The notes beneath the pieces were generated by a model that worked only from the letters and a program-made list of their open reading frames with translations, was not told where the DNA came from and did not search any database. Below, piece by piece: positions 6,272-16,206 of a stretch of DNA of 64,000 nt (the stretch's first letter is position 1; each line of letters begins with the position of its first letter). Position numbers and translations under genes: made by a program. Source of the DNA: Desmonostoc muscorum LEGE 12446 (GTDB lineage Bacteria; Cyanobacteriota; Cyanobacteriia; Cyanobacteriales; Nostocaceae); contig NZ_JADEXS020000001.1 in NCBI RefSeq assembly GCF_015207005.2, positions 6,781,001 through 6,845,000 of the forward strand, read 5' to 3'.

Positions 6272-6411
6272 GCCAGCAAAAGCTCTTTGCAAGAATCAAT
6301 ACCTTAGCCAAAAAAAGAGTATGACATTTTATATTGTTAGCATTTAACAAAAATTGTTTTTTTCCTTGAATTTTTGAGCTAGTGACAGCAGAAATTAAGC
6401 CTTATATTGGT

Positions 6412-6858
6412 TTACAGCTTTTCAAACGATCCTGTAATCACTGACCCGGCAGGAACAGTTTGAATTATGAGTACTTTTTTACCTTTATTGACAATCACGC
6501 CGATTGCAGTAGTGGAGAAATTAGAACTGTCAGTATAGGTGAAAGACGCGGTGCAATTTGGCTGTACTTGGTAAGTTCCTACAAATGTTCTAGAAACGCT
6601 CGTACCGTTGAAACTGACAGTGTTATTGCCACTAAATCCTCCGTTGCCATCGAAGATAAATAAGCCTATCCCACCAAAAGCGCCAGGGGTTAAAGGTGCT
6701 AGATCTGAAACGATTGTTCCAGCTGCTTGCGCTCCATAAACTGAGTTCAATGTACTCAGTCTACATACTGGAGCAGCTTGTGCCTTAGCAAAGACAGTTT
6801 GTCCAATAAAACTAACTGCGGTAAGAATTGCTGGTAGAACTAAAAACTTAACTTTCAT
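6412..6858 (-). CDS. Small secreted protein, paralogue of 7203-7649
   Basis: 148 residues with a clean Sec signal peptide (MKVKFLVLPAILTAV..., cleavage likely after AKAQA, about residue 28). The mature part is a small beta-rich domain with two cysteines (PVCRLS, PNCTAS) and Gly/Asn-rich turns such as FDGNGGFSG. The same architecture occurs in cyanobacterial secreted proteins of unknown role. It is a near-identical-length tandem paralogue of the next gene (same ends MKVKFLVLPA and VITGSFEKL). A weak GAGA ribosome-binding site precedes the ATG. No function can be assigned. Confidence 0.8.
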   Translation of the reverse strand: MKVKFLVLPAILTAVSFIGQTVFAKAQAAPVCRLSTLNSVYGAQAAGTIVSDLAPLTPGAFGGIGLFIFDGNGGFSGNNTVSFNGTSVSRTFVGTYQVQPNCTASFTYTDSSNFSTTAIGVIVNKGKKVLIIQTVPAGSVITGSFEKL

Positions 6859-7202
6859 GATTTTCTCTGCTAAATGAAAACTGACAAATTTGATTGGTAG
6901 ACTTTTGCCTTCGTTCGACTTTATCCATTTTTACGAAATCCAAAACCTGATGCTGAAACCATTGTGGAACGCTAGTTTTACTTTTTGCACTGGAGCGAAA
7001 ATCAGTAAAATGGAAAAAGTATTTGCCAAAAAGCCAGGATTTTTGCCGAATCAAGAAAGCTGAGTTCTTAATTTTGGATCAAGTCGAGCTTAGAGGATGT
7101 TTGAAAAGTCTTCTTGTCGTTAGACTGATCTTTCCCAAACAGATGGTTTTTATCTTTTGAATTGTTGAGGTGATGACAGTAAAAACTCAGTATTATCTTG
7201 GT

Positions 7203-7649
7203 TTACAACTTTTCAAACGACCCTGTGATTACAGTTCCGGTAGGAACAGTTTGAATAATGAGTACTTTTTGACTATTGTTGACAATCACGCCTGTTAAAG
7301 TAGAGGAGAAATTAGAATTGTCAGTGAAGTTAAAAGACGCGGTGCAGTTTGGCTCTACTTTATAAGTTCCTACAAATGTTCCAGAGATAATCGTACCGTT
7401 TAAGCTAAAAGTTTGCTCGCCTTTTAATCCTCCCTTGCCATCGAAAACAACTAAGCCCACGAAACCAAAAATGCCAGGGGTAAAAGGTGCTGGAAGTGAA
7501 ACGAGTGTTCCAGTTGATTGCGCTCCATAGCTGGAGTTTAATGTACTCAGTTTACAGACTGGAGCAGCTTGTGCCTTAGCAGAGACAGTTTGTCCAATAA
7601 AACAAACTGCGGCAACAATCGCTGGTAGAACTAAAAATTTAACTTTCAT
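7203..7649 (-). CDS. Small secreted protein, paralogue of 6412-6858
   Basis: 148 residues from the ATG at 7649, which has an AGGAGAG ribosome-binding site and aligns exactly with the start of its paralogue. An upstream in-frame ATG at 7685 adds 12 residues (MKFPSFYLGEKI) ahead of the signal peptide and is rejected. Signal peptide MKVKFLVLPAIVAAV..., mature start near APVCKLS, two conserved cysteines, C-terminus VITGSFEKL. It and the downstream copy arose by tandem duplication that included flanking DNA. Unknown function; likely periplasmic or extracellular. Confidence 0.8.
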   Translation of the reverse strand: MKVKFLVLPAIVAAVCFIGQTVSAKAQAAPVCKLSTLNSSYGAQSTGTLVSLPAPFTPGIFGFVGLVVFDGKGGLKGEQTFSLNGTIISGTFVGTYKVEPNCTASFNFTDNSNFSSTLTGVIVNNSQKVLIIQTVPTGTVITGSFEKL

Positions 7650-7685
7650 AATTTTCTCTCCTAAATAAAAACTGGGAAATTTCAT

Positions 7686-8378
7686 TGGTAGACCTTTCGC
7701 TTAGAGGATGTTTGAAAATTCCTCTTGTCAATATTTAATATTCATGGCTTTTTTTCCTGTTTACTGATTGTTTAGATATGACAGCAGAAACTCAGCCTCT
7801 CTACTAGGGTGTGGTAGTTAAGGCTTAAAAACCTGCAATGCTTGGAAATGACCGCAAAGCTTTTTACTCGAAAGTGAATCGCTAGTGTTTAGCTTTCACT
7901 TGATTCATCCTGATCTTAGTGTCCATGATTAATAGATAAACTACGTCTACGTTGAGAACCGTAGTTTTTTGTAATTAGGGTAAAGCTCATAACTAAAGCT
8001 ACAAGCAAACTATATATAAGCCCTTACATAAAACTCCAGCTTTCAAAATGGAGGACGTTTATCGATTTTCTAAAAGGTTGTTTCAAAAGTCTTAAAGTAT
8101 ACTAAAAACCCCGCTTCCATTCCTCTCCCCGTTTCGGAGAGAGGCTTTGAAACTCCCCTTCGGTTGTAGGGAAGGCTTGCTTGGAGCGTTAGCTCTGGGA
8201 GCTTTTGGTGTTAGGAATAATACTTTTCAAACATCCTCTAACAAACAATAAGATTACACTAAGTAGGTAGGCACGATCAAATTAATATATGTTTAGTTTT
8301 GTAAAAATGCTGAAATAACCTATTTGTAGCTAGACTACCTCTATTTTTGGCAAAGGTATTGCAGAAATTAAATAGATT
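7686..8378. other. Intergenic region with MITE-like repeats
   Basis: 693 bp without a convincing gene. It holds a solo element end (GAGGATGTTTGAAAA near 7703), a full short element (8074-8239), and the leader of the interrupted methyltransferase gene. Confidence 0.5.
8074..8239. mobile_element. MITE-like element with AGAGGATGTTTGAAAAGT ends
   Basis: About 166 bp bounded by imperfect inverted repeats: AAGGTTGTTTCAAAAGT on the left and, reversed, AGAGGATGTTTGAAAAGT on the right. The same end sequence recurs near 7090, 7703, 55317 and 55753. The interior carries GC-rich inverted segments (CCTCTCCCCGTTTCGGAGAG). No coding capacity, so any movement would need a transposase in trans. Confidence 0.55.
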
Positions 8379-8573
8379 ATGGAAGACCTCAAGCAAACAA
8401 TAATCAGCTACTCCAGCAGAGACCTCGAACAGCGCAAAAATTGGTATTCTCCGGCAGGCGGAGCTTATAACAAGGCAAGACCCCGCTATCCTCAGGATTT
8501 GATTGAGCAAGTTGTGGAAGTTGCTCAACTCTCCACCGATTCAAAAATTTTGGAACTGGGATGTGGCCCTGGA
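8379..8573 (+). CDS. Methyltransferase, 5' exon (interrupted by group II intron)
   Basis: This encodes the first 65 residues (MEDLKQTIIS...) of a class I SAM methyltransferase and stops inside motif I: ILELGCGPG. The next bases are GTGCG, the group II intron 5' consensus. Splicing to 15577 gives LELGCGPG-TATVAFAQLG, a perfect motif I with the following helix, and a continuous 274-residue frame (195 + 630 nt including the stop). The unspliced message would end a few codons into the intron (VRFV then stop), giving a 69-residue stub. The family resembles ubiquinone-type or trans-aconitate-like methyltransferases; the substrate is unknown. Confidence 0.9.
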
Positions 8574-9145
8574 GTGCGATTCGTTTAACCTAAATGAGTA
8601 GAAATACTCAGGGACGGTTAGCTTGGTTTATAAAAACCATGACAACTGAATGACCATGTAGGTGTAAACCCTACCCCGCAGGTGCAGCGGTGAAAGCATC
8701 TTCCCTACGGTAGCGACTAGCCATCAATCCGTAAAGCGGGAGGAAAAGGAGTTCTAACTAGTAGCCTAATCTGGTTTCCTCCAAGCAAGAATCCATGAGT
8801 AGCGCAAGCGAAAGATACGTCTGAACCATCGTCACGCATAACCAGCGAAATAAGGCTATATGCGCTGGAGCCAAAAGGCAAAGGATAAAAAGGGACTGGC
8901 ATTTTTCCATGTCTGACCAGTAAGCACTCCCAAAACCCGGTGGATAGTATCAACTCTAAAGATTCAATCAATGGTCATTCGGAACGAAGTAACCTCTCGT
9001 TCTCTCTCAGTCAGGTCGATAACTGAGTAGGTGCTAACCGCATGAGGCGATAGGCAGGATTGAGTCAGAAGCGAATGCCTCACTGTAATGGTGAGGATAT
9101 GCTGACGGACTCACGATGAATTGGATTGTAAAGTCATAAGTAGCA

Positions 9146-9769
9146 ATGAATATGTCTAAAACGCGACCAGTCAATCTTAAACTAGCAGAAAAAGCAATCC
9201 ACCCGGATAAGCCAATTCTAAAGGCAAAGAACGACAAATCGACGGTGGAATGGAAACACAACAACTGGCGAAAGTTAGAAAAACGTGTTTACAAGTTGCA
9301 AAAAAGAATTTACAGAGCCTCATCTCGTGGTGATGTCAAAGCAGTACGCAGACTCCAGAAGACACTGATGAAGTCTTGGTCAGCAAAGGTCTTAGCGGTC
9401 AGAAGGGTAACACAAGACAACCAAGGTAAGAAAACGGCGGGTGTAGACGGCATCAAATCGCTGACTCCAAAGCAACGTTTCACCTTAGTTGCCAAATTAA
9501 AACCAAACTCAAAATGTCGCCCAACTAGGCGGGTATGGATTCCCAAGCCCGGAGGAGAAGAAAAGCGACCATTGGGTATCCCTACAATGTACGACCGAGC
9601 CTTGCAAGCACTTGTCAAGATGGCGTTAGAACCAGAATGGGAAGCGCGATTTGAACCTAACAGTTATGGGTTCAGACCAGGACGCTCATGCCATGATGCA
9701 ATTGAAGCAATATTCATTGCAATCAAGCAAAAGCCAAAATATGTGCTGGATGCTGACATTGCTAAATGC
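9146..9769 (+). pseudogene. I1 reverse transcriptase/maturase, N-terminal fragment
   Basis: 208 residues starting MNMSKTRPVNLKLAEKAI. They contain the cyanobacterial group II RT N-terminal domain, the RT0/RT1 region (KTAGVDGI, WIPKPGGEEKRPLGIPT), RT2 (EPNSYGFRPGRSCHDAI) and the start of RT3 (KYVLDADIAKC). The frame is cut after Cys by the GTGCG of intron I2; intact relatives continue CFD. The other piece of the protein resumes at 12174, but about 130 residues including RT4-RT6 and the YxDD catalytic box are absent. So this maturase cannot be active as polymerase, even after I2 is removed. Confidence 0.9.
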
Positions 9770-10227
9770 GTGCGCCGTGACAGTTAACGCGGTATCCCCA
9801 ACCAAGTTGGGAGAGACTAAGAAGAACGTCTCTAAGTCGACCAACTTACCTGGAGTTGAAAGACAAAAGGGACAACAGCATGTTGGTAAAGCCGGAAATA
9901 GAGAGAAGGCGTTAAAACTAGAGTCCGGCAAGACTTGTGTGACATGGTGAAGCTTAAACTACCTGAAGCCCAATTCTGACGGTATACGCGATTGCCTATT
10001 CCTACAACGCCTAAAAAGGAATAATCGTTTGTGTGTAGTTTTAAACATTTGAACCACACAACTTCTTCAAACGAAGTCAGCCAGCGATGAGATGGCTTAA
10101 CGAATGAATGGGACACCTAAATCACACTGTTACGTACTGAGTTAATAAAGCGCGGGATGACCTACGGGGGGCGATCCCTATGGTTACAGAGTTCCTATAG
10201 TAGTCCGAGGACGGGAAAGCCGCCTAC

Positions 10228-12063
10228 ATGGCGAAGAGGAACAGGTATTCTTCACACTCATATCGAGAGGTACGCGAGATGCGAAACGCCGAAACGATTT
10301 TAAGTGTAATCCGAGACAGAGGCTACCGTGGTTTACCTCTGGATGATATCTACAGACAACTTTTCAACCCCAATTTATACCTCTTGGCGTACAGCCGCAT
10401 CTACAAAAATGATGGGGCAATGACGCAAGGAATTACATCAGAGACTGTTGATGGGATGTCCATCAAAAAGATTGAAAACCTCATAGAGGATATTCGCTAT
10501 GAACGTTTTCGGTGGACACCAGTACGGCGAATTAATATTCCCAAGAAAAATGGAAAAACTCGACCTCTGGGTATTCCCACTTGGAACGATAAATTGATTC
10601 AGGAAGTAATACGTTTAATATTAGAAGCGTACTACGAGCCTCAATTTTCTAACAGCAGTCATGGTTTTCGACAAGAGCGCGGATGCCATACGGCGCTAAC
10701 AGTAATAGACCGTACTTGGCAAGGAACTAAATGGTTTATCGAAGGAGATATTCGCGGTTGCTTTGACAATATAGATCATAAAATCTTAATGTCAACCTTA
10801 CGCGAGACAATCCAAGATAATCGTTTCTTGAGATTGATTGAAAACTTACTCAAGGCAGGTTACTGTGAGCAATGGAAATATTATTCCACCCTGAGCGGAA
10901 CGCCGCAAGGCTCGATTTTATCACCCATACTCGCCAATATCTATCTTGACAAATTCGATAAATTTATCGAACAGATACTCATCCCAGAATATACACTTGG
11001 TAAACATCGGGCAGAAAATCCAGAGTATTCAAAACTCGTAAAACTTGCTTGGTATTACAGGAAAAACGGACAAGTTGATAAAGCGCGTCAACTGGAAATT
11101 AAATACCAGAAAATGCCTTCTAAAAATGTTCGTGACCCTAAATACAGAAGGTTAAATTACGTCCGCTATGCAGACGATTTCCTACTTGGTTTTATTGGCT
11201 CATTCCAAGAGACAAAAGAAATTAAGGAAAAACTCAAGACATTTTTAGCTGACAATCTTCAGTTGGAACTGTCACCAGAAAAGACCCTGATTACTAATGC
11301 TAGGAATGAGGCAGCAAGCTTTCTAGGTTACAAAATTCTAGTCCAATATTCTGACGATAAGCATACCAATGGTAAACGCTCAATCAACGGAATTATTGCA
11401 CTAAGAATCCCAGCAAGACTTATAGAAGAAAAATGTACCCTATACATGAGGAATGGTAAACCCATTCATCGCCCTGAATTAATAAATGATGATGATTTTA
11501 CTATTATCAACATTTACCAATCGGAATTTAGAGGGTATGTACAATTCTATAGCCTTGCCCAAAATATTGCATGGCTGCGAAAACTTCAATGGATTATGTC
11601 GAGTTCGCTGATGAAAACCCTTGCCTGTAAACACAGAACTAGCGTGGCTAAAATCTGCGCCAAGTATAAGAAGACGGTAAAGCTTCCACAAGGCTTGAGA
11701 AAGTGTGTGGAAATAACTGTCCCAGTAGAAGGTAAGAAATCCCTGGTGGCTCGCTTTGGCGGCATCCAATTAAAACGCAACCTAAAAGCAACCATTCTAG
11801 ACCTGCCAACAAATAGAAAGCCCGCGTTCAGAAATGAACTAATTAAACGGCTTCTTGCTTCGGAATGTGAGATTTGCGGGGCAAAAGGTGATATTGAGGT
11901 TCACCATATTCGTGCCCTTAAAGACCTCAAAGCCAAGGGTAGAAAGGAAAAACCGCAATGGATGCAAATTATGTCCGCACGTAGAAGGAAAACTCTCATG
12001 GTTTGCCCTCAATGCCATGATGCAATACACGCTGGTAAACCAACATCTAAACGAGTCTCGTGA
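10228..12063 (+). CDS. Group II intron I2 reverse transcriptase-maturase with HNH endonuclease
   Basis: 611 residues, apparently intact. RT motifs in order: RRINIPKKNGKTRPLGIPT, HGFRQERGCHTAL, WFIEGDIRGCFDNIDH (first catalytic Asp), GTPQGSILSPILANIYLD, and VRYADDFLLGF with the YADD box near residue 314. A long insert sits between RT4 and RT5, and a thumb/maturase X domain follows. The C-terminal HNH domain has CEICG...EVHHIR...CPQCHDAIH, a zinc-bound HNH. It would assist splicing of I2 and drive retrohoming by target-primed reverse transcription; as the only intact RT in the nest it could act in trans on I3. The ATG lies 16 nt after the Shine-Dalgarno-like GAGGACGGG. Confidence 0.93.
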   Translation: MAKRNRYSSHSYREVREMRNAETILSVIRDRGYRGLPLDDIYRQLFNPNLYLLAYSRIYKNDGAMTQGITSETVDGMSIKKIENLIEDIRYERFRWTPVRRINIPKKNGKTRPLGIPTWNDKLIQEVIRLILEAYYEPQFSNSSHGFRQERGCHTALTVIDRTWQGTKWFIEGDIRGCFDNIDHKILMSTLRETIQDNRFLRLIENLLKAGYCEQWKYYSTLSGTPQGSILSPILANIYLDKFDKFIEQILIPEYTLGKHRAENPEYSKLVKLAWYYRKNGQVDKARQLEIKYQKMPSKNVRDPKYRRLNYVRYADDFLLGFIGSFQETKEIKEKLKTFLADNLQLELSPEKTLITNARNEAASFLGYKILVQYSDDKHTNGKRSINGIIALRIPARLIEEKCTLYMRNGKPIHRPELINDDDFTIINIYQSEFRGYVQFYSLAQNIAWLRKLQWIMSSSLMKTLACKHRTSVAKICAKYKKTVKLPQGLRKCVEITVPVEGKKSLVARFGGIQLKRNLKATILDLPTNRKPAFRNELIKRLLASECEICGAKGDIEVHHIRALKDLKAKGRKEKPQWMQIMSARRRKTLMVCPQCHDAIHAGKPTSKRVS

Positions 12064-12078
12064 TAACAGAGTACTGGA

Positions 12079-12113
12079 GAGCCGTGTACCTGGAAATCTC
12101 GTAAGCACGGTTC
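12079..12113 (+). ncRNA. Group II intron I2 domain V
   Basis: A 35-nt hairpin: 5' strand GAGCCGTG with the AGC catalytic triad, a GGAAA-type apical loop, and 3' strand CACGGTTC. It begins 15 nt after the RT stop. A domain VI-like hairpin and the 3' splice site (CTACCCAC) follow. Confidence 0.85.
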
Positions 12114-12173
12114 GGAGGGGGCTAGTTAGAAAAGGAGCTAATAATTGGAAACCTCGCTAGCTAGCTACCCACT

Positions 12174-13093
12174 TTAAATGGCATGGGACTTGAACTTAAA
12201 CCAAGTAAAACGCGCCTTGCCCATACTCTGAATAAATACGAAGGGCAAGAAGCGGGGTTTAATTTCCTGGGGTTTAACGTCAGGCAGTACCCAGTAAGCA
12301 AATACAACACAGGTTGTAATACAAATGGGAAATCTCTTGGTTTCAAGACGCTCATCACCCCCAGCAAAGAAAAGGTCAAGGTGCATTACAAACAAATTGC
12401 CGGAATAATAGAACAGCATAAACCCGCCCCTCAAGCGGCACTGATAGCCCACTTGAATCCAGTCATCACTGGATGGGCTAATTATTTCAGCACAGTAGTC
12501 AGCAAGGAAACGTATTCCGAGCTAGACATGAAAGTGTACCGGAAGCTAAAAAGCTGGGGCAAAAGAAGACATCCGAATAAGTCAGGTAAATGGGTAGCCA
12601 ATAAATACTGGCAAACCATTGACGGGGATAACTGGGTATTTGCAACTCCGCAGGAGGGTAAAAACCCAATGCAACTACTAAAACATAGCGCCACAGAAAT
12701 CAGGCGATATGTGAAGGTTAAAGGCGAAGCCAGTCCTTATGACGGAAACCTTATTTACTGGAGTACAAGAATGGGTAATAACCCCGAAGTCCCAAGGAAA
12801 GTGGCAACACTCCTGAAACGACAGAAAGGTAAATGTGCCCACTGCGGACTATATTTCACAGAATACTCGGTGATAGAAATTGACCATATCATTCCTAAGT
12901 CAAAAGGAGGAAAGAGTGAATATAAAAACCTTCAATTACTACACCGACATTGCCACGATGAAAAGACCGCCTCTGATGGCAGTCTGGGTAACAAATCTGG
13001 CTGTAACAGCGCCAAACCTAAGCCTGAACTAACAGGTAATCGAGGTACTCATGACAAGAGCCTTATTATTGAGGAGCCGGATGAAGCGAAAGT
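12174..13093 (+). pseudogene. I1 reverse transcriptase/maturase, C-terminal fragment
   Basis: Reads LNGMGLELKPSKTRL onward: RT7, the maturase X domain (HLNPVITGWANYFS) and a full HNH endonuclease (CAHCG...IEIDHIIPKSKGG...HRHCHD). It is the C-terminal half of the protein begun at 9146. Frame is lost relative to that piece: direct I2 excision would give CFKWHGT and a stop. At the right end the frame enters domain V of I1 and is cut after EEPDEAK by intron I3. Joining 13093 to 15522 continues V-SRPVLKTSGSREGTA and a stop at 15570, the usual ending for this RT class. The ATG at 12183 does not mark an independent gene. Confidence 0.9.
13074..13093 (+). ncRNA. I1 domain V, 5' part (split by I3)
   Basis: The 20 nt GAGCCGGATGAAGCGAAAGT form the 5' strand, AGC triad and GAAA-type apical loop of I1 domain V. 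The remaining 14 nt (ATCACGTCCGGTTC) lie at 15522-15535. Joined they give exactly 34 nt with GAGCCGGA paired to TCCGGTTC. Intron I3 occupies the break. Confidence 0.88.
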
Positions 13094-13477
13094 GTGCGCC
13101 GTGGTACGCACTGATAGAATTGCCAACACAGTTGGCTGGAGTTTGGGGTAATCGACTCCAAGGCGAACAACTTACCTAGACTCGAAAGAGCGAGGGGACA
13201 AGAGCATGTTCGTAAAGCGGAAAGTAACAGAAGACGTGTATGTTACGGTTCCGCAACGCCTGAACGATATGGTTAAAGCCAAACTGCTTAAACCCTAATA
13301 TCCTGCGGTGGAACTGCACATCCTTCGGTAGCACGTCCGTACACCGATGTTATCGGTAGCCATTAAATCAACTTTCGTTAATGGTACACCCTGACCGATA
13401 AGCGATGAGTAATGAACTCATTCAAGGATATGAGTAGGAACCTAAGTCGTTCTTTATACGTTCATCAGTGACGGAAC

Positions 13478-15440
13478 ATGGGATTGCCTAAAGGACGCGA
13501 GTCCTATGGTGACGGAGTGACAATAGTAGTCGTGGGAGTATCGCCCCACCAGGGAAAACGGGAGAACCGTTTACAGGGCGAAGTGTCACAGGTAATTAGA
13601 TGTAACAGAAATCGAGAGGTACGCGAGATGCGAACAGCCGAAACGATACTGAACATCATACGTGAGCGCGGACAACGTGGGTTGCCAGTAGAAAACGTGT
13701 ATCGACTGCTATATAACCCAGATTTGTACCTACGCGCCTACGCCAAGCTAAACAGCAACGCAGGTGCAATGACACCAGGCGCTACGCTGGAAACAGTGGA
13801 TGGGATGTCCCTGGAGAAAATTAATACCATCATTGAGGCTCTGAGATATGAGCGATATAGATGGACACCAGTGCGACGTATTTACATCCCCAAGAAGAAC
13901 GGTAAATTAAGACCTCTTGGTATGCCTTCCTGGTCAGATAAATTACTTCAAGAAGCAATTCGATCCATACTAGAAGCCTACTATGAGCCTCAGTTTAGCG
14001 AACACTCTCACGGTTTTCGACCCCAACGCGGATGTCATACAGCACTGAAAGAAATTACCCAAAAAGGTCGAGCTACTAAGTGGTTTATCGAAGGAGATAT
14101 CAGCGCGTGTTTTGACAGAATAGACCATTTTATCCTGTTAAAAATACTACAAGATAAAATCCACGACAATCGCTTTATTCGACTAATCAAGGGATTGCTG
14201 GATGCAGGGTATTTAGAAAATTGGAAATACAATTCCACTTATAGCGGGGTTCCGCAGGGTGCAGTTGTAAGCCCAATACTTTCCAATCTGGTGCTAGACA
14301 AATTGGACAAATACGTCGAACAGGAATTAATACCAGCATACACACGAGGTCAACGAAGGAGTGTTTTCCCACCGTACAATGTGCTGACCAAAGCAGCAGC
14401 CAAAGCACGAAAAATAGGAAATTTGTCAGAAGCGCGGAAACTGAGCCAACAGGCACAATCGATTCCGTCCCGTGACCCCAATGACCCAAACTTTCGTCGC
14501 CTTTGGTATACAAGGTATGCCGATGATTTTCTGTTAGGAGTAGTAGGCTCAAAATCTGAAGCTGTGGAAATCAAACAGAAAATTGCTACGTTTCTACGTG
14601 ACTCTTTAAAACTGGAACTCAGTGAAGAAAAGACGCTCGTTACCCATGCTCGTGACGAAGCTGCTAAATTCCTGGGTTATGAAATCCACATACTACACGC
14701 CGATGATAAGCATGACCATCGTGGTCAAAGATGTATCAACGGTAGTGTGGGTCTTCGGGTTCCAAAAAGCGTAATTAAAGACCACTGTGTTAAATATATG
14801 CGCTCTGGGAAGCCTATACACCTGACGCAAAGAGTCAACGATAATGCCTACAGCATAGTTAGCCAGTATCAAGCGGAATATCGAGGATTAGTCCAGTATT
14901 ACCGCATGGCTTACAACCTCCACACTCTCTCCTTACTGAAACGAGTTATGGAGCTTTCTTTAGTAAAAACTTTGGCAAAGAAGTTTAAAACTACATGCCA
15001 GAAAATTTACAGACAGTATCGCACAACCATTGATACCAAAGATGGTACTTACAAGGTATTACAAATTACAATGGAGCGCGATAACAATAAGCCTTTGATA
15101 ACTCATTTTGGTGGTGTCTGTTTGCGATGGAATAAGTGGGTCAAAATAGACGATAACCTGGCTAATCATATCTGGAACGGGCGTAGTGAAGTCATTCAAC
15201 GTCTTTTAGCCCAAAAATGTGAAATTTGCGGAGCAACGGATAATATTGAAGTCCACCATATCCGCAAACTAGCAGACATTAAGCCTCATGGATGTAAAGA
15301 ACGTCCAGAATGGATGGTAAAAAATGTCAGCACGTAAACGAAAAGCCCTCGTGGTTTGTCGTCAGTGTCACGAGAAAATCCAATACGGACGCTACGATGG
15401 TGAAGCTCTCAAACGTTTTGATTACTGGAAAGCTACGTGA
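13478..15440 (+). pseudogene. Group II intron I3 reverse transcriptase-maturase, HNH frameshifted
   Basis: The open frame runs 13478-15337 and is homologous throughout to the I2 RT. RT motifs: IPKKNGKLRPLGMP, HGFRPQRGCHTAL, WFIEGDISACFDRIDH, GVPQGAVVSPILSNLVLD and TRYADDFLLG. The ATG used by I2 (ACATGGCGAAG) is AGG here, so translation would start at GTG 13583, ATG 13628 or the far-upstream 13478. Near 15318-15325 a run of six A shifts the frame: KNVST-stop replaces the expected K-MSARKRKALVVCRQCHEK..., which continues in the other frame to 15440. The second half of the HNH (CRQCH) is therefore lost unless slippage on the A run restores it. RT and maturase regions look intact. Confidence 0.85.
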
Positions 15441-15464
15441 TACGGAAACGGTCATGCGTAGTTT
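15430..15464 (+). ncRNA. Group II intron I3 domain V
   Basis: Hairpin AAGCTACG...CGTAGTTT, 35 nt, with an AGC triad and a GGAAAC apical loop. It overlaps the stop codon of the out-of-frame HNH end at 15438-15440. Base changes relative to the I2 domain V keep the pairing (compensatory A-U for G-C). Confidence 0.75.
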
Positions 15465-15521
15465 GGAGGGGGGTGGTTGGAAAAGTGCCAATACTGGTAA
15501 CTCGCTGGCTACCTACCCTAC

Positions 15522-15576
15522 ATCACGTCCGGTTCTGAAGACGAGCGGTTCTCGTGAGGGAACCGCTTAGTTTAAC
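15522..15576 (+). ncRNA. I1 domain V 3' part, domain VI and 3' splice site
   Basis: ATCACGTCCGGTTC completes I1 domain V. The following GAGCGGTTCTCGTGAGGGAA...CCGC segment folds as domain VI, and the intron ends TTTAAC. The RT stop codon (15568-15570) lies inside domain VI, so coding and ribozyme functions overlap. Confidence 0.8.
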
Positions 15577-16206
15577 ACTGCAACAGTAGCATTTGCTCAA
15601 TTGGGTTGCTCAATGATCTGTTTGGAACCCAACCCAGATTTTTTCCAGTTAGCTCAACATAATTGTCAACCGTATTCTAATGTAAAGATTGAAAACACAT
15701 CCTTTGAAGAGTGGGAACTCAAGCCATTTGAATTTGATGCCGTTTTAGCAGCTAGTTCTTTTCATTGGATATCACCGGAAGTAGGATATCCGAAAGCCGC
15801 AAATGCTTTAAAAGAAACTGGCTACTTAATTTTGTTGTGGAACAAAGAACTTCAACCCAACTACGAAGTATACCAAAGTTTATCCCAAATATATCAATTA
15901 CATACTCCATCTCTCGATCGCTATGAAGACCGAGAAACTCAAGAATATATCTTGAGAGAATTAGGAAATATGGCTATTGATTCCGGGCAATTCAAAAACC
16001 TAATATCCGGAAACTTTGTATCAAAAGTAACATACACTGTTGATGAATATTTAACACTTTTAAACACTTATTCGGCATACATAAAATTAGATCCACATAG
16101 CAAAAAGTCTTTATTTTCAGCATTGAAACATCGCATCGAAGATGATTTTGAAGGTAGTTTGCAACTTTCGTATATCTCTGCTTTTCACATAGCCCAAAAA
16201 GTATAA
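15577..16206 (+). CDS. Methyltransferase, 3' exon
   Basis: 209 residues continuing the gene begun at 8379: TATVAFAQLGCSMICLEPNPDFF (end of motif I, strand 2 acidic residue), then FDAVLAASSFHWIS and LKETGYLILLWNKE (motifs II/III). Reading from 15577 is the same frame as an internal ATG at 15601, but a protein starting there would lack SAM-binding motif I. Full function requires removal of all 7003 intron nt. The C-terminus (ISAFHIAQKV) looks natural, so the host gene itself is not decayed, which argues that splicing still occurs or was lost only recently. Confidence 0.9.
   Translation, partial: TATVAFAQLGCSMICLEPNPDFFQLAQHNCQPYSNVKIENTSFEEWELKPFEFDAVLAASSFHWISPEVGYPKAANALKETGYLILLWNKELQPNYEVYQSLSQIYQLHTPSLDRYEDRETQEYILRELGNMAIDSGQFKNLISGNFVSKVTYTVDEYLTLLNTYSAYIKLDPHSKKSLFSALKHRIEDDFEGSLQLSYISAFHIAQKV

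Follow-up and report, generated by a model that had tools for sequence, protein, structure and literature searches.

How can a bacterial gene come to be interrupted by an intron that is itself interrupted by two further introns, and could such a gene still yield its enzyme? The question is raised by a methyltransferase gene of Desmonostoc muscorum LEGE 12446 (a genome of 9.6 Mb in 12 contigs), which lies in the 64,000-nucleotide stretch of contig NZ_JADEXS020000001.1 that we analysed (positions 6,781,001 to 6,845,000; here called the window). The original prediction, made from the sequence of the window, was that the gene contains one outer and two inner group II introns, one inner intron being in the open reading frame (ORF) and the other in the ribozyme core of the outer intron, and our analysis found this arrangement to be correct. 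The outer intron occupies positions 8574–15576 of the window; inner intron 1 (9770–12173) is located in the reverse transcriptase (RT) codons of the outer intron and inner intron 2 (13094–15521) in its domain V (DV). All features of the nest are on the plus strand. Sequence comparisons with relatives in other genomes make it very probable that this nest of three group II introns arose by site-specific invasion, with one lineage directed to the RT site and another to the DV site, and that a cassette was exchanged between outer introns.

The host gene is divided into a 5′ exon (8379–8573), which terminates in an ELGCGPG motif, and a 3′ exon (15577–16206). When joined, the exons form a frame of 274 codons with zero internal stops or frameshifts, so that the host frame outside the introns is undecayed as had been claimed, and the 274-residue product matches the Pfam family Methyltransf_25 (E = 1.4e-12). 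Comparison with intron-less relatives, a check that was named beforehand, revealed uninterrupted orthologues in eight of 38 other genomes, all from the same genus, with 71–89% identity over at least 273 of the 274 residues. The sequence at the exon junction is GCGPG|TAT in each of the five orthologues displayed. The idea that the two exons belong to separate genes and are joined fortuitously is ruled out by the eight uninterrupted orthologues, and with the motif present at all five displayed junctions we give it practically no credence. Thus, the 8573/15577 junction restores the methyltransferase.

The outer intron is 7003 nt long, or 2171 nt without the inner introns, and has the predicted ends, GTGCG and TTTAAC. 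Its positions 60–587 are 92% identical to an intact relative (L188). The features of a group II intron are present, namely the GTGCG start, a 3′ AY end, a 34-nt DV and a domain VI (DVI), with DV being formed only after removal of inner intron 2. The 5′ 20 nt of DV (13074–13093) comprise a stem, the GAAA tetraloop and GT, while the 3′ 14 nt are found, together with DVI, at 15522–15576; the joined DV and DVI are predicted to fold as two hairpins (−36.7 kcal/mol). The intron-encoded protein (IEP) of the outer intron is likewise in two parts. The N-terminal part (9146–9769) contains RVT_N and the start of RVT_1 and extends to the RT motif DIAKC, and the C-terminal part, with GIIM and HNH domains, is located with the end of domain IV at 12174–13073. 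Compared to nine relatives, 113–122 codons are gone between the motif Cys and LNGMGLEL, including GTPQGG, SPLLANI and YADD. The scar of this deletion, from which intact relatives indicate that ~113–122 outer RT codons (FDRIN...YADD...EW) were removed, is at 12173–12174, and the sequence 3′ of inner intron 1 restarts precisely at a TTA codon. The deletion could have been made by a 2-nt TT microhomology or by recombination between two copies of inner intron 1. As the RT core including YADD is lost, the outer IEP cannot function as an RT, and because of this deletion the removal of inner intron 1 fails to restore the outer RT. The outer intron thus lacks an intact IEP, which is usual in group II introns but is not required for splicing. 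To call it a complete intron with two insertions would be too simple; the two inner introns are indeed there, but the RT core is lost and the middle part apparently stems from another outer intron, as described below. In a separate observation, three outer-type introns were found close together in another genome (L179 2576–9870, G003); the second begins immediately at the 3′ end of the first, ~2.5 kb further on.

Inner intron 1 (2404 nt) is inserted in the outer RT codons at DIAKC|F, a site that it shares with homologous copies. It is a group II intron by its Rfam match (RF00029; DV/DVI at 12077–12173, 45.8 bits), its GTGCG start and its IEP (10228–12063; 611 aa), in which RT, maturase and HNH domains were found. 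Its 3′ end is ACT and not the usual AY. In the homologous copies the exon after the intron reads TTC/TTT GAC/GAT in frame, which places the 3′ end of inner intron 1 at 12173. Of the junction predicted at 9769/12173, the 5′ side at 9769 is therefore retained, while the 3′ exon starts one base later, at 12174.

Inner intron 2 (2428 nt) is inserted after position 20 of the 34 positions of the outer DV. It too matches Rfam RF00029, with DV/DVI at 15428–15521 (46.2 bits), starts with GTGCG, ends with AC, and encodes an IEP (13478–15337) that is 55% identical to that of inner intron 1. RT and maturase domains were found in this IEP; an additional A within a run of As truncates the HNH domain. A relative with 99% DNA identity (L084) has an IEP that is open throughout (653 aa). 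The claim that the two inner introns are complete, each with an RT gene and a DV, thus holds for inner intron 1 and less so for inner intron 2, the IEP of which is frameshifted in HNH. Removal of inner intron 2 creates a 34-nt outer DV (20 + 14 nt) with eight of eight lower-stem pairs. Moreover, the outer 3′ end without inner intron 2 aligns in one piece to the intact relatives L181 (246 nt, 82%) and L188 (107 nt, 86%), and the predicted junction at 13093/15522 is correct. Inner intron 2 and the outer intron therefore constitute a twintron in the sense that removal of the inner intron restores the outer one, here via DV.

Homologues of inner intron 2 are also located in the DV of other introns. 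A scan with an IEP alignment against genome contigs of 84,980 species returned 254 relatives, and the analysis was continued with the best 80. Completion of a DV across the intron was scorable for 66 of these 80 loci, the other 14 not being scorable, and 172 starts were tried. Scores of at least 9/10 were obtained for 15 of the 66 loci, compared to 70 of 99,550 random position pairs. The high-scoring loci are from Cyanobacteriota (seven), Planctomycetota (four), Bacteroidota (two), Pseudomonadota (one) and an unplaced bacterium (one), and a score of 10 was also obtained for two further cases, namely an additional intron of L113 and one on a Microvirga plasmid (L197). L113 comes from an alphaproteobacterial metagenome-assembled genome, and there an inner-2-type intron (6331–8782) interrupts the DV of an inner-1-side relative. 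Fischerella (L117) has a DV-type intron that starts within the DV of an inner-1-type intron. Shuffling of the DV halves between loci was uninformative, as the halves are conserved. The sequences 3′ of DV vary among the loci, which indicates that their common feature is DV itself and not one outer family. Plasmid relatives (4 of 597 records examined) include the DV insertion of L197, two RT-motif insertions (L198 and L199) and one case of neither kind (L196). When the phylum was searched with the inner intron 2 IEP, a match at E 1e-120 was found in two of 386 genomes, own genome included, with three or fewer candidates scored in most of the genomes listed; the lineage of inner intron 2 looks sporadic.

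The RT site is used repeatedly as well. Judged by the 5′ side, 14 loci have an intron of the inner-1 type at DI(A/E)KC| (the window, L020, L079–L083, L085, L087–L090, L094 and L198), the flank of L082 being displaced by one base, and five more (L021, L091–L093 and L096) are placed there by the 3′ side alone. Three other records, L097, L146 and L199, cover the same places as L083, L085 and L089, respectively, and each place was counted once. Because some loci are near-copies (L080–L082; L090 and L094), there were fewer RT-site insertions than loci. The inner intron 1 relatives share the RT codons across Nostoc, Calothrix, Komarekiella and Scytonema, and the outer RTs targeted are of at least two kinds, the kind found in the window (also in L021 and L096) and another with VIELDIEKCFDRINHSAIMDEL. 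In L021, on contig C2, inner intron 1 precedes an RT end that is undeleted (FDKINH, with FADD for YADD) and an uninterrupted DV, while the 5′ side of this copy is truncated. Two side observations concern these loci. At L021 5500–5960, the first bases of inner intron 1 and the 5′ flank are replaced by short repeats (CAGGATTAAATGCAAC and its complement), and this region is probably the end of another mobile element. On plasmid3 of Calothrix sp. NIES-4105 (L199, 238–6914), a group II RT gene, read by eye, is apparently split twice, by an outer-type intron at GFRPG|RSAHDAQ and by an inner-1-type intron at DIEKC|FDRI; this is possibly another three-intron assembly.

The two insertion sites are also separated in a quick, unrooted IQ-TREE phylogeny of 78 IEPs (71 distinct). 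All 22 rows labelled as DV insertions, weak and one-sided labels included, fall inside one branch of 28 rows with an SH-like approximate likelihood ratio test (SH-aLRT) value of 95, and the 11 RT-motif rows fall inside one branch of 12 rows (SH-aLRT 100), the twelfth being L095. The site labels change seven times on the tree, compared to a mean of 29.4 for shuffled labels, a difference in which near-copies favour clustering. The remaining rows of the DV branch are L117, which is in the DV of an inner-1 type, L106, L135, L136, L130 and L143. As the tree is unrooted, a single origin of DV targeting does not follow from it. Insertions at other coding sites were observed too. L106, at the base of the DV branch, is inserted in another RT gene at YADD|FVILH (around 1166 and 3571), and L098 and L099, which represent different phyla, have a similar conserved coding stretch as their insertion site (YLFD|FLDL and YILD|FLML), so that fixed targets may exist in other branches too.

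The hexamer ACTTTC at 13371–13376 of inner intron 2, in a hairpin loop, is assigned as the exon-binding site 1 (EBS1) of this intron. It pairs at six of six positions with the intron-binding site 1 (IBS1) in the outer DV, GAAAGT, and is the sole 6/6 complement of this sequence within 13094–13478. The aligned loop of 22 introns ends with TTTC in 13 of 13 introns that have a GAAA target and with TCTC or TCTT in five of five that have a GAGA target, four having other target letters. Over 19 distinct combinations, 92 of 114 EBS1–IBS1 positions are paired, against a permuted mean of 84.0 (p 0.006, from a permutation that ignores shared ancestry). EBS1 pairs better with the target than with the intron's own DV in 10 of 18 distinct combinations, equally in five and worse in three (sign test p 0.09), which is suggestive at most of DV-targeting introns having an EBS1 that avoids their own DV. 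For inner intron 1, the probable EBS1 is ACATTT at 10045–10050, also in a hairpin loop, which pairs at five of six positions with the IBS1 AAATGC and is one of seven 5/6 matches within 9770–10228. The loop of the inner-1 type, ACATTT or GCATTT, pairs at five or six of six positions, wobble included, with the Lys-Cys codons AAATGC/AAGTGC; this pairing was scored by script in the window only.

A second composite is present in the same genome (L020, C1:880001–900000), between what its neighbours' translations suggest are a TnpB-like gene and an aminotransferase-like gene. Window positions 9770–15521 equal the L020 copy save for a 46-nt gap and a 1-nt gap (one A). On the 5′ side of this cassette the first mismatch between the window and L020 is 22 nt out and ungapped windows show 57–82% identity, on the 3′ side the two differ from the first base, and the outer domain-I regions are 70% identical. 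The DV of L020 folds free of mismatches (−18.3 kcal/mol). An identical cassette of inner intron 1, outer RT end and inner intron 2 within a diverged outer intron indicates that the outer intron of the window is probably recombinant. We also compared pieces of the outer introns with nine relatives for their affinity. The outer 5′ half of the window is nearest to L188 (89.3%; next 79.2%), the middle block is nearest to L181 (75.5%; next 68.8%), and the outer 5′ half of L020 is nearest to L181 (78.2%; next 72.1%). Most likely, the block reached the outer intron of the window from an L020-like one, with gene conversion through the identical inner introns as the simplest mechanism.

The ends of the shared block could also be read as those of a composite intron that is mobile as one unit, with its 5′ splice site taken from inner intron 1 and its 3′ splice site from inner intron 2, since the block stops exactly at the 3′ end of inner intron 2 and, on the other side, no more than 21 nt from where inner intron 1 starts. 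However, both copies are located between the RT motif DIAKC and the 3′ part of the outer DV, whereas after insertion of such a unit at the RT site the FDRI codons should come next, and gene conversion between outer introns that both carry the inner introns yields the same ends. A single mobile unit was rejected on these grounds and we consider it unlikely. Having 5.75 kb identical at two places of one contig might instead reflect an assembly artefact in which the assembler copied the L020 cassette into the window locus. This is very unlikely, as the 46-nt deletion and a single A set the copies apart, the contig measures 8.86 Mb, and similar insertions with other flanks are present in other genomes.

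In the scenario of invasion and exchange that we favour, the outer intron interrupts the methyltransferase directly after the S-adenosylmethionine (SAM) motif I. Inner intron 1 is a member of a lineage whose target in other group II introns is the RT codons D-I-x-K-C|F. Inner intron 2 is from a related lineage that inserts into the DV of other group II introns, 3′ of the tetraloop, with an EBS1 complementary to the tetraloop and the two bases that follow it. Both would have arrived by retrohoming. Later, two diverged outer introns of the genome would have exchanged the block of inner intron 1, outer RT end and inner intron 2, gene conversion being the most likely mechanism. As the catalytic centre of a group II intron is its DV, the outer intron cannot splice before inner intron 2 leaves. 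We would expect inner intron 2 to be spliced first, inner intron 1 at any time and the outer intron last, the latter, with its RT core gone, being spliced with a trans maturase or without any. Candidate trans maturases are encoded by 594-aa open frames at two places of the genome, the N-terminal part being 66% identical. The enzyme would be made only once all three introns are out.

Several observations weigh against this scenario. L108, L114, L118 and L131 look DV-inserted by their flanks, yet score 6–8; the DV halves of L108 and L118 pair poorly; and the DV label of L139 and L140 is based on the 3′ part only. Five of the 28 rows in the DV branch are without a DV call, namely L106 (at RT YADD|F), L135 and L136 (in other sequences), L130 and L143. 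Among the inner intron 1 relatives, L095 sits outside any RT gene and L104 and L134 are without a site call. Many introns pair imperfectly between EBS1 and IBS1, and since the five with a GAGA target group in a single tree branch, they possibly represent one change. The 55-nt 3′ piece of L020 is closer to L188 (90.7%) than to L181 (87.0%), which misfits a purely L181-like L020. The outer intron itself shows weak IBS1–EBS1 pairing (5/6, one of nine such matches in domain I), and its DV in the window holds an A-A mismatch that forms an internal loop (−15.0 kcal/mol). Lastly, the methyltransferase is split across two frames in one genome (G010) and only pieces of it match in another (G015), so that it is dispensable in some strains.

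The A-A mismatch in the outer DV and the split or broken methyltransferase of two relatives, along with the deleted outer RT core and the HNH frameshift of inner intron 2, would also suit a decaying pile-up, in which the invasions are real but the outer intron has lost its ability to splice and the gene no longer gives a functional methyltransferase. Against such decay, the 274 codons are free of internal stops and frameshifts, the outer DV and DVI are still predicted to fold, and related IEPs have the 594-aa open frames mentioned above. In addition, the ratio of nonsynonymous to synonymous substitution rates (dN/dS) of the methyltransferase is 0.12–0.26 between the window and five orthologues (five of the eight fetched, L171–L173 being left out), though most of this divergence may predate the insertion. 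Decay of this kind is a possibility that we take seriously, albeit not the outcome that we expect. Apart from the nest, the window contains two adjacent minus-strand genes for small proteins (6348–6906 and 7136–7697), which are copies with 83% identity.

With both sites recurring in the introns of other bacteria, the two invaders look like specialised intron parasites. We think it likely that two related bacterial lineages parasitise group II introns, one recognising the active site of the RNA (DV) and the other the codons for the active site of the protein (RT motif DIxKC|F). If so, the targets would never run out, as every group II intron must keep DV and the RT motif; the DV invader would be hard to lose, as the splicing of the invaded intron depends on it; and invaded outer introns would be missed by standard annotation because their DV is interrupted. 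One published pipeline leaves out twintrons (PMC4028801), and in another the outer intron escaped detection (PMC8919778), which suggests why such outer introns go overlooked. The proposal also provides a testable rule as to which parts of a catalytic intron can act as a perpetual homing site and what effect an occupied active site has. Under it, the introns of a bacterial coding gene should be spliced in a strict order, and natural EBS1 variants facing GAAA and GAGA tetraloops are available.

Among the literature matches listed, in which coverage of subscription journals is thin, there was no bacterial lineage specialised on DV or on DIxKC|F codons. Cyanobacterial twintrons, introns that home into the ORFs of other introns and a plastid twintron with its inner intron in DV have been published already (PMC2882425, PMC4649490, PMC4424553, PMC8393795). 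The Thermosynechococcus elongatus twintrons, F3 in F1 (Mohr et al. 2010, PMC2882425), are also cyanobacterial; they likewise insert at a conserved position of the RT ORF carried by another group II intron and likewise have identical inner copies within diverged outer ones. Unlike here, their inner introns are ORF-less and located between two start codons, and the term 'domain V' is absent from the text of that paper as searched. In the Euglena psbF twintron, as in our case, an inner group II intron is within the outer domain V; that twintron is from a plastid, and the passage of the review that describes it (PMC8393795) is silent on a DV-targeting lineage. The Porphyridium plastid twintrons differ in having a single inner intron with its site in domain IV, as far as the available text describes them (PMC4476101). 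The nested introns of Methanosarcina acetivorans (Dai and Zimmerly 2003, as summarised in part of the review PMC4424553) resemble the present nest in their repeated site-specific homing into group II introns, with up to five nested, but are archaeal. Finally, the Trichodesmium twintron Tr.e.I7/I8 (Pfreundt and Hess 2015, PMC4649490, in the part available) contains a single inner intron in domain I, whereas here there are two, at the RT active-site codons and in DV, and for that twintron sequential splicing was demonstrated.

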